IMG/VR virus record: IMGVR_UViG_3300021197_001642
Span: 1-26,084 of that record
DNA length: 26,084 nt
Source: a virus
Direction: 5' to 3' (one strand)
Made by a program: the position numbers and the translations under genes. Within the stretch, counting starts at the first letter, position 1. The number at the start of each line of letters is the position of its first letter. Below, in pieces: positions 16,851-19,517 of this stretch. The notes under the pieces were generated by a model. The model saw only the letters and a list, made by a program, of their open reading frames with translations. It had not been told where the DNA came from and did no database searches.

Positions 16851-17165
16851 TTATTTTTTCCTTTTCTTCTCTGTAGCAACATTAATTGCTTTACCTTTAC
16901 GGTTTGGATTACTATCCTGTCGATTCTTTCTTCTGAATGCACTATCCTCTTCTTTATCAGAGAGGTTGCGCTTCATTTTTGAAGAACCACATTTTGGTTT
17001 GGTTGTTTGACCTGGTTGTTTTGCACAGGGTTTTCCTGCAAATTTGCCACCCAATTGAACCCAGCCAGGCTTGCCATCACTAGAACGACTCTTGCCAAAC
17101 CAGTCACGCAGAGAACTATCACCACTTTTGTTGGACTCATTAATAAATTCCTCAAATGTTTTCAT
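16851..17165 (-). CDS. Small basic Cys-containing protein of unknown function
   Basis: This 104-residue, strongly basic protein has a helical start (MKTFEEFINES), a central SLRDWFGKSRSSDGKPGWVQLGG segment, two Cys in GKPCAKQPGQTTKPKCGS and a Lys/Arg-rich C-terminal half. I recall this architecture in other T4-like cyanophages but know no function. It begins 1 nt after the stop of the minus-1 frame extension of the upstream gene. That extension shares its composition and a similar Cys-then-KMK pattern (FCSRMKGMKK against KCGSSKMKRN), which hints at related basic modules. Nucleic-acid or internal head association is conceivable but unproven. Confidence 0.75.
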   Translation of the reverse strand: MKTFEEFINESNKSGDSSLRDWFGKSRSSDGKPGWVQLGGKFAGKPCAKQPGQTTKPKCGSSKMKRNLSDKEEDSAFRRKNRQDSNPNRKGKAINVATEKKRKK

Positions 17166-17166
17166 A

Positions 17167-17442
17167 CTAGCAATTCCAACGACGAAGTGCTTTATTGATT
17201 TTAGAGTCTGGATCTCTTGCAGTTTTTGCAGAGGTCAGTCTCTTCTTCATACCCTTCATCCTGGAGCAGAATGAAGATCTACGCTTAGCATCTTTAGATC
17301 CCTTCTTAATTTTAGAAGGTTTAGTAGTAACTGCAGTCTGAAGTTTAGAATTTGGATTCTCTCTCTTATAAGCATTTACTGTGCTTTGACTTAGACCATC
17401 GGTCTTATCTTTGCGATTGGCTTTTTGCCAATCTTCATCTAC
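17167..17442 (-). CDS. Minus-1 frame C-terminal extension of the Lys/Cys-rich gene (frameshift product)
   Basis: A 91-codon frame begins with GTA at 17442 and ends with TAG at 17167. The product starts VDEDWQKANRKDKTDGLSQ, passes through FCSRMKGMKKRLTSAKTAR and ends in RRWNC. It is basic with two Cys, and I recall close relatives as a C-terminal domain of marine phage proteins. It has no usable start codon: the frame is closed by TGA at 17464-17466 and the first ATG lies late, within SRMKGM. It would be translated by a -1 shift from the 692-residue frame, giving a fusion of about 783 residues. The next gene begins 1 nt after its stop, so the operon spacing treats it as the true gene end. A one-base sequencing error is the main alternative. 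Confidence 0.75.
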   Translation of the reverse strand, partial: VDEDWQKANRKDKTDGLSQSTVNAYKRENPNSKLQTAVTTKPSKIKKGSKDAKRRSSFCSRMKGMKKRLTSAKTARDPDSKINKALRRWNC

Positions 17443-17465
17443 TTTCCCAGGCGGTCTTCCTCTTC
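17415..17465 (-). promoter_or_regulatory. Candidate programmed -1 ribosomal frameshift signal
   Basis: On the minus strand, in order: a Shine-Dalgarno-like purine run (GAAGAGGAAG, 17465-17456); the zero-frame slippery heptamer G GGA AAG (17448-17442); the zero-frame stop TAG at once (17441-17439); and, after an 8-nt spacer (17441-17434), a perfect 7-bp hairpin GATTGGC/GCCAATC with an A5 loop (17433-17415). Heptamer, spacing, purine run and hairpin match the bacterial dnaX-type layout, and G GGA AAG is the heptamer of the lambda G/GT tail frameshift. Confidence 0.72.
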
Positions 17466-19517
17466 AGATGCCATCTTATATCCAACTTTTGCTGCCTTTC
17501 CTGCAGTCTTTATACCTTCACCAGCACCCTTAGCAACAGCACCTGCAACTTTGCCTGCTTTTTTGATAACTTTACCAGTCTCTTTTGCATTCTTCATTGC
17601 AGCATTATGACGCTCCATACCCTTCATAACTTGTCTGGCAATAGCGTCCAGTACAGGTCTCCTTTTAGGTTGTTGCTTTTTAGCAGTATCTACTGCTGCT
17701 TTTGTTTTTTCCGCAGATGGTTTTTTCTTTGATACTTCTTTAGCATCAATTTCTGCTTTTACTTGTGCATAAGATTTGGCACCTTTTTTAGCACGTCTTG
17801 CCGACCTCTCTTCAGTTAGGTATGCATCAGCAGAAAGACCTTCTACAAAACTTACAAATTGGTCAAGACCCAATTCTTCAATAAGGATATCTACACCATC
17901 ATCATTAATACCTTCCTTGAAGAAATATTCTGCGGCGATGTCTGCCAACACTTCTTCCTTTTTAGTTTTGCTACCCCAGTTCTTAGCACCTTTTTTACGG
18001 CACTTAACTAAAGCACCTGATGCATATGCAGAAGGCCATACAGAATAACGAGACTTGACCTTATGATAGCAAGCATCCTTTTCTCCTGCTCCCTCTTCTA
18101 CTTCTTCAAGTCCAGGACAACACTTTTTACCATGAACTCCACAGTCTGTTCCTTTTGCAGTTTGAGCACACTCGGTCTCTTCAAATCTTGCTTTGGCTTT
18201 TACTTTTTTACCATCAGGTCCAGGTACATACTCACCAGTGTCAGAACTCTTCATATCACTGCTGTTTACAGTGCCATCAACATTAGAATCAACTCTCTTG
18301 ACTGCTTTATTAGTAAGTTTCTTTAGGTTACCACCACCAATAGTTGTCTCATCTTTTGATTCTTTCTGTACTTTTAGAATCGGTGAATTGTGAGGAGAAT
18401 ACTCACTAGGTAAAGAGGTTCTTTGGAATTGAGTTACTCTACCGCCAGGGTATACTTTTTCAATCTCTGTCTGAATTTCGGACTTCTTAGGCATTGTTGC
18501 CTGAGGGAAGAACATTTTAATCATCAGAGATCTACCTCTCCATATAACAACAACTGCCAACAAGTTACCATACTCTGCTGGAAGTCTCATTGCTTCGTCA
18601 ACCTGCACTTCTTCCCTTGTTGTTGCTCTAGCAGATTTGAAGTTACGAGTCATCTGCATCGATGCTTTTTTCTGTGCCTTTGCTCTCTTAGAACCTGGTT
18701 CGGTCCTTTCAAGATCATCAGACTTTTGCAATGCACGACGACCAGGAGACATGCGTGCTTTTTCATCACCACTCAATACTCTTTTATTAGTAGGAGCGGG
18801 GGACTGATACATTCCCTTGTAATCTTCAGTAGTCTTTTCTGCTTTTTTCTTAGCAGATTTTTTCACATACTTTTCTTTAGTAAAAGATTCAGGTTTACCA
18901 CCATAAGAGGCTCTAACTGGTGCAGAACCCTTCACATAAGTTTCTGATTCTGAGACTTCATCTTCCTTTACGCAGTTAGGAACCATCTTACCGCCTTTAT
19001 TTTTCATACCTTTCTTCTTATATCCTACCCAACATTTCTCTGCAATATCTTCAGGTTTAATTAAGTCAACAACTTCCATGAACTTGTTGCCGAAGGCATC
19101 TTCAATAGAAAGAGATTCTCCCATTCCACCACCGCCGTCACCGCCGCCGTCACCACCTTCGCCACCTTCTACTGGTTTATCAATACCAACTTCTTCTGGT
19201 TCACGACCACCTCCAGAGAAACGTGCAGTTGTCTTTAAACCATCAGGTATTTTTTTACACTTTTTATCTGTGTAGCAATAATACATGCCTTTACCACATT
19301 TCTCTTCGCCAAGAATAATATCAACTAATTTTAATCCAGGTATAATTTCTTCTTGCTGACCTTGCCTCAATCTAGGAACATCCACTTTAGCAGCAGGAGT
19401 CATTTTGTTTTTAGCAACTTTTGCCTCATTCTCATTAGGAGATTTAGTCATGGCGCTAATCTTTCTCTGCTTGGTTGCAGCTTTATGAGTCTTAGGATTT
19501 ATATCGAAACTAGCCAT
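17439..19517 (-). CDS. Long Lys/Cys-rich modular protein of unknown function (zero-frame product)
   Basis: This 692-residue, basic, low-complexity protein lies between genes 16 and 17. Visible modules: C-rich CGKGMYYCYTDKKCKK (74-89); an acidic Gly-rich linker (about 118-133); CWVGYKKKGMKNKGGKMVPNC (162-182); a folded-looking segment with WRGRSLMIKMFFPQA (326-340) and VYPGGRVTQFQR; a calcium-loop-like DSNVDGTVNSSD (410-421); Cys-rich CAQTAKGTDCGVHGKKCC (450-467); YHKVKSRYSVWPSAYASGALVKCR (484-507); an acidic helical segment (527-570); and an Ala/Lys-rich tail. I recall the modules as recurring in cyanophage proteins without known function. The zero frame stops at a slippery site and is probably extended by the minus-1 frame. 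Virion-internal or DNA-associated roles are possible only by composition. Confidence 0.85.
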   Translation of the reverse strand: MASFDINPKTHKAATKQRKISAMTKSPNENEAKVAKNKMTPAAKVDVPRLRQGQQEEIIPGLKLVDIILGEEKCGKGMYYCYTDKKCKKIPDGLKTTARFSGGGREPEEVGIDKPVEGGEGGDGGGDGGGGMGESLSIEDAFGNKFMEVVDLIKPEDIAEKCWVGYKKKGMKNKGGKMVPNCVKEDEVSESETYVKGSAPVRASYGGKPESFTKEKYVKKSAKKKAEKTTEDYKGMYQSPAPTNKRVLSGDEKARMSPGRRALQKSDDLERTEPGSKRAKAQKKASMQMTRNFKSARATTREEVQVDEAMRLPAEYGNLLAVVVIWRGRSLMIKMFFPQATMPKKSEIQTEIEKVYPGGRVTQFQRTSLPSEYSPHNSPILKVQKESKDETTIGGGNLKKLTNKAVKRVDSNVDGTVNSSDMKSSDTGEYVPGPDGKKVKAKARFEETECAQTAKGTDCGVHGKKCCPGLEEVEEGAGEKDACYHKVKSRYSVWPSAYASGALVKCRKKGAKNWGSKTKKEEVLADIAAEYFFKEGINDDGVDILIEELGLDQFVSFVEGLSADAYLTEERSARRAKKGAKSYAQVKAEIDAKEVSKKKPSAEKTKAAVDTAKKQQPKRRPVLDAIARQVMKGMERHNAAMKNAKETGKVIKKAGKVAGAVAKGAGEGIKTAGKAAKVGYKMASEEEDRLGK

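Follow-up and report, generated by a model that had tools for sequence, protein, structure and literature searches.

The window analyzed here, a stretch of 26,084 nucleotides from IMG/VR (IMGVR_UViG_3300021197_001642), is a virus contig of the marine T4-like cyanophage type by its PHROG gene content, with matches to portal, gp13-, gp14- and gp15-like proteins, the small and large terminase subunits and sheath. PHROG annotation places a zero-frame ORF of 692 codons (17439-19517, minus strand) between the small and large terminase genes, adjoining the former; it encodes a modular Lys/Cys-rich protein of the PHROG 727/3477 type. Downstream on the same strand lies a gene for a 104-residue protein (16851-17165), a related PHROG 727 module. 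The two genes match different stretches of this same PHROG, whose modules form one gene in some phages and two in the window; the family is strongly mosaic.

The 692-codon gene ends with the codons GAC CGC CTG GGA AAG TAG, so that a heptamer G GGA AAG in zero-frame phase (17442-17448, minus strand) directly abuts the stop codon (TAG, 17439-17441). Upstream is a Shine-Dalgarno (SD)-like run, GAAGAGGAAGA (17455-17465), with GAGG/AGGA 10-11 nt from the motif, and 8 nt past the heptamer begins a perfect 7-bp hairpin with an A5 loop (GATTGGC-AAAAA-GCCAATC, 17415-17433, -9.0 kcal/mol). These three minus-strand elements had been named in a preliminary description of the window, and all are present as claimed. 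The heptamer permits -1 re-pairing of both tRNA-Gly and tRNA-Lys, and SD-like runs stimulate such slippage (PMC4066793, PMC5009743). In E. coli, with stimulators present, no other heptamers slip as efficiently as GGGAAAG, AAAAAAG and CCCAAAG, the published rules asking for an SD 6-17 nt upstream and/or a hairpin 4-10 nt downstream (PMC4066793). Across the ten CDSs of the window the general pattern X XXY YYZ occurs at 21 of 4,904 codon-phased positions, and any of the three efficient heptamers at a single one, the gene-end site.

Beyond the heptamer the -1 frame stays open for 91 codons (17167-17442, minus strand) and closes with a TAG (17169-17167) that leaves a 1-nt gap to the ATG of the downstream gene at 17165, confirming the continuation described earlier. 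This extension contains a complete DUF6321 domain (PF19846; 17176-17412, minus strand; E 6e-13), which scores 49.6 bits against a Pfam gathering cut-off of 28.5. Relatives of the extension were found in 492 phage records, nearly all from cyanophages and some from pelagiphages. The domain is predicted to be all-helical (mean pLDDT 84.7); we found no match in the PDB by sequence or by fold, and its viral fold matches were other DUF6321 proteins only. No paper naming DUF6321 turned up in the open-access literature searched.

Recurrence and conservation of the frame break

Protein-guided and pattern searches recovered the identical break in 18 other IMG/VR contigs from 18 datasets. Part of this set was retrieved with patterns containing GGGAAAG-TAG; the protein-guided searches are free of that bias, and alone they returned two copies (L009 and L012) in one search and nine in another. 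We refer to the shared arrangement as the cassette. Its upstream end is of four types (..GYKMA[ST]EEEDRLGK, ..KKEEDRLGK, ..FEGEDRLGK and ..DLEDDRLGK), and its downstream frame of two: type X, to which the window belongs, reads V[DE]EDWQKANR.., and type Y reads V[DE]EKLNIKKADMG.. and, on contigs of sufficient length, reaches the same DUF6321 end. The nine copies of the second protein-guided search are of type Y and include L122, in which CGG replaces CTG (Leu to Arg) and the heptamer is intact. All 19 copies have an SD core 10-14 nt ahead of the motif (GAGG, GGAG or AGGA, with AGGGG in one upstream type), and it is retained although the residues encoded there vary. Several of the contigs are near-identical to one another and a single origin is probable for all GGGAAAG copies; the 18 contigs therefore do not represent 18 independent events. 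The recurrence of the site in 18 contigs, joined to different modules, argues that the element is shared and functional, and against a sequencing error. A DNA similarity search found no cassette in cultured phages. Three GTDB matches in Clostridia were taken as unrelated, and seven loose-pattern matches (L099, L102, L104, L105, L108, L111 and L112) sit in unrelated sequence.

In the window and in all X-type copies, the first ATG, GTG or TTG of the -1 frame comes no earlier than residue 62 and the first near-cognate start no earlier than residue 45, which is already inside the domain. More widely, a short in-frame lead precedes the domain at 46 of 130 DUF6321 loci; all of these except the cassette loci have their own start codon, and every startless short-lead ORF among the 130 carries GGGAAAG-TAG. 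Pairwise, X-type extensions are separated by 3-14 synonymous and 0-5 nonsynonymous changes (dN/dS 0.00-0.11). For close Y-type pairs dN/dS is 0.00-0.08, with 18 synonymous and no nonsynonymous changes between L100 and L113; Y pairs whose alignments span different modules give 0.17-0.53. No copy has a stop codon inside the extension. Judged by these substitutions, the -1 frame extension is under strong purifying selection.

The nucleotides around the break are conserved as well. Copies of the commonest upstream type diverge by up to 37% over flanks of 243-255 nt and show 0-1 changes in the last 15 nt. Among five diverged lineages, degenerate codons are identical at 5 of 22 amino-acid-conserved flank sites versus 4 of 4 in R-L-G-K. 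The CGC CTG outside the heptamer is likewise conserved, and we do not express the conservation near the joint as a probability because recombination there could contribute. The site can thus be read from the aligned sequences as a conserved, phased heptamer with a stimulator and with selection on the -1 product, the sequence features by which bacterial-type -1 sites are recognized.

The hairpin behaves differently from the other elements. It occurs in all ten X-type copies (eight at -9.0 kcal/mol and two, which contain a G-U pair, at -6.7 kcal/mol), and a hairpin conforming to the published rules (PMC4066793) is found in none of the nine Y-type copies. Of the features that the preliminary description proposed to compare across homologous loci, the heptamer and the adjacent TAG do accompany the break, as does the SD, and the hairpin does so in type X only. 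Its absence from the Y-type copies rules it out as an obligatory element. When DWQKANR is recoded with random synonymous codons, 0.55% of the sequences reach -9.0 kcal/mol, and many in-frame relatives have a weaker form (-6.7 kcal/mol at best), indicating that the hairpin is partly a by-product of the coding sequence. It is strongest in the cassette lineage, and on these comparisons we regard it as an optional stimulator.

In-frame relatives and further sites

DUF6321 is fused in frame to the upstream part in P-TIM68, P-HM2, P-SSM2, P-SSM4, DSL-LC02, S-SCSM2R, S-B68 and S-RIM2. Virion association of the cassette protein family is known from two homologues only, both of this in-frame kind and from purified virions: S-CREM2 ORF137 (108049-109521), represented by 4 unique peptides (PMC10665884), and S-SCSM1 ORF29, labelled 'virion protein' in a study that used mass spectrometry (PMC9602691).

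In-frame siblings were found among the viral contigs. Four of them (L339, L340, L342 and L343, the contigs of the protein-found L124, L010/L125, L126 and L123, respectively) keep the SD, CGC CTG and GGGAAAG and continue the zero frame with TCTGA; in a fifth (L341) the same elements are followed by ATTGATGAA. A -1 shift in any of the five would reach TGA after one codon. Chance may account for this, because T-ending codons before Asp or Glu produce TGA; alternatively, it may be a mirror-image use of the heptamer. Searched as protein in cultured phages, the sibling stretch gave no match. We tentatively suggest, as a possibility we consider rather less than even, that GAYCGCCTGGGAAAG serves a shuffled cyanophage virion-protein family as a portable frameshift joint working in two directions. 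Where TAG lies in the zero frame slippage would lengthen the product, and where the stop lies in the -1 frame (TCTGA, ATTGA) it would shorten it; one gene would give long and short forms in either case, with their ratio inverted between the alleles.

A different heptamer was found in a homologous gene. In L186 (2844-2854; the same locus as L338, IMGVR_UViG_3300024581_000359), AGGGAG is followed after 8 nt by A AAA AAG TAG and by a startless 173-codon -1 extension that ends in DUF6321, at a locus adjoining the large terminase gene. The same device, with a dnaX-like signal, may have arisen here independently; as a single contig, the locus adds weakly to the case for frameshifting. In L178 (3013-3028), A10-G-TAG ends a 347-codon ORF and the -1 frame goes on with VDEKLSKKSSMGKYIDDFQDSDAPQFKGKS; we set this site aside as weak, as it is one contig with a homopolymer, where sequencing error or transcriptional slippage is possible. 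The pattern searches also fetched unrelated phages with -1 extensions behind GGGAAAC (L335:5750, L336 and L337) or AAAAAAC (L286, L287 and L303) abutting a stop, in the manner of tail-assembly-chaperone frameshifts.

Interpretation of the frame break

We propose that the 692-codon gene uses programmed -1 frameshifting to give products of 692 and 783 residues, a reading to which we assign a probability of roughly 0.87. Most ribosomes would stop at the TAG and release a 692-residue protein ending in EEEDRLGK. A minority would be held by the internal SD-like run, and in type X by the hairpin too, and would slip backwards by one base at G GGA AAG, tRNA-Gly moving from GGA to GGG and tRNA-Lys from AAG to AAA. 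These ribosomes would bypass the TAG and make the 783-residue protein with its C-terminal DUF6321 domain. We infer that such slippage takes place in the cyanobacterial host, at a frequency that leaves the long form in the minority, and that both forms enter the virion. The likely role of the slippage would be to set the fraction of the virion-associated protein that bears the domain, given that the protein is present in the virions of relatives in which the domain is fused in frame. Translational coupling to the gene at 16851-17165 could be influenced by the shift as well, because only shifted ribosomes would terminate 1 nt before its ATG.

The simplest alternative is that a base is missing near the heptamer through sequencing or assembly error and that the true gene is a single frame of about 783 codons. 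Distant relatives are indeed single-frame, and a gain of one base would restore the frame. However, 18 more contigs, each from its own dataset and differing in sequence and in upstream and downstream modules, show the same break, and the site is not a long homopolymer; we consider an error exceedingly improbable. A genuine one-base deletion may instead have broken the gene, leaving a functional short product and a decaying domain, or an allele that spreads by recombination without being decoded. In-frame siblings exist, loss of one base could create the break, and the GGGAAAG copies resemble a single origin spread by recombination. Against this, the extension has accumulated mainly synonymous changes (18 to 0 between L100 and L113, and the low X-type dN/dS), no copy has acquired a stop codon, and the break always falls on a top-class heptamer with an SD, all of which make decay very unlikely. 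The preliminary description had held that close relatives with an uninterrupted frame and no heptamer would point to an error or a recent mutation; the close relatives in fact keep the break, heptamer, TAG and SD, and only more distant ones are single-frame. Together with the selection and the lack of a start codon, this makes both a sequencing error and a decayed gene very unlikely and -1 frameshifting the best explanation.

There are two further explanations. The frame might be made as a separate protein by reinitiation or from its own start, as many phages encode DUF6321 by itself in a gene that has its own ATG; in Y-type copies AAGAAGG precedes an ATG at ADM|G, where reinitiation could yield part of the domain. 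In the X-type copies, however, the first possible starts (residue 62, or residue 45 for near-cognates) come too late; the conserved residue W5 would drop out and the heptamer would be left unexplained. We therefore regard separate synthesis as very unlikely, and since the X-type -1 frame has no start codon, frameshifting remains as the route to the domain in that type. Alternatively, GAYCGCCTGGGAAAG may be kept as a recombination joint between modules and not as a recoding signal: it links four upstream and two downstream module types, it is also present in the in-frame siblings, and the conserved CGC CTG falls outside the heptamer. A joint alone leaves unexplained the selection on a startless -1 frame and the SD core kept across different amino acids, and we judge it highly improbable as the whole account. 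As the two roles are compatible, the joint is more an addition to frameshifting than a rival. The two products anticipated by the preliminary description, of 692 and about 783 residues, are thus best explained by frameshifting, in view of the conserved site, the selection and the startless frame.

If frameshifting is correct, gene callers would overlook the C-terminal domain that a probable virion protein carries in phages with the cassette, and proteome searches built on such gene calls would be blind to the fusion peptide. With one module boundary now known from in-frame, stop-in-frame-0 and stop-in-frame-(-1) alleles, the creation of frameshift sites by domain shuffling becomes directly testable. 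In the open-access literature searched, we came across no description of a programmed frameshift in this interval of T4-like phages, and nothing relevant on frameshifting in cyanophages.

Comparison with known frameshift systems

The proteins closest to the extension are the cyanophage DUF6321/T4-GC 119 proteins, of which it is a member, with agreement in module order and genome region; unlike the cassette, these are decoded in frame in the eight cultured phages examined. Lambda-type tail assembly chaperones share the signal, G GGA AAG being the slip heptamer of lambda G/GT. The same heptamer serves the chaperone frameshift of HCTV-5 (PMC5009743). However, the cassette gene is not a chaperone: it does not lie between a major tail protein and a tape measure gene but has terminase neighbours, so that we reject membership of the G/GT group. 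Its upstream SD is a further difference.

The dnaX arrangement invoked by the preliminary description holds in part. As in E. coli dnaX, the window has an SD, a -1 heptamer and a downstream hairpin, and L186 has AGGGAG with A AAA AAG; but the hairpin is not conserved in type Y, and the dnaX shift shortens the product whereas the cassette shift would lengthen it. In outcome, it is the in-frame siblings that would resemble dnaX. In B. subtilis cdd (A CGA AAG) and IS1222 (G CGA AAG), a -1 slip on AAG gives an extended product (PMC5009743), but only tRNA-Lys re-pairs well there, whereas both tRNAs can in the cassette.

In its proposed mode of action the cassette would be most like the Ig-like domains added by frameshifting to phage virion proteins. 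In the T3 coat protein and Lactobacillus phage A2, a frameshift adds a C-terminal Ig-like domain to a virion protein, and a review points out that domains on the move may come to lie in frame or out of it, frameshifting then being selected (PMC5009743). In these and in T7 gene 10A/10B, as apparently in the cassette, part of a virion gene's product gains a C-terminal domain through a shift at the gene's end, and the domain is mobile and occurs in and out of frame among relatives. The cassette differs in carrying DUF6321, predicted to be all-helical and with no PDB fold match, in lying in the terminase region and in having a slip site that travels with the module joint. It therefore stands outside the Ig-like frameshift group, since its domain is not Ig-like, while appearing to work in much the same way.
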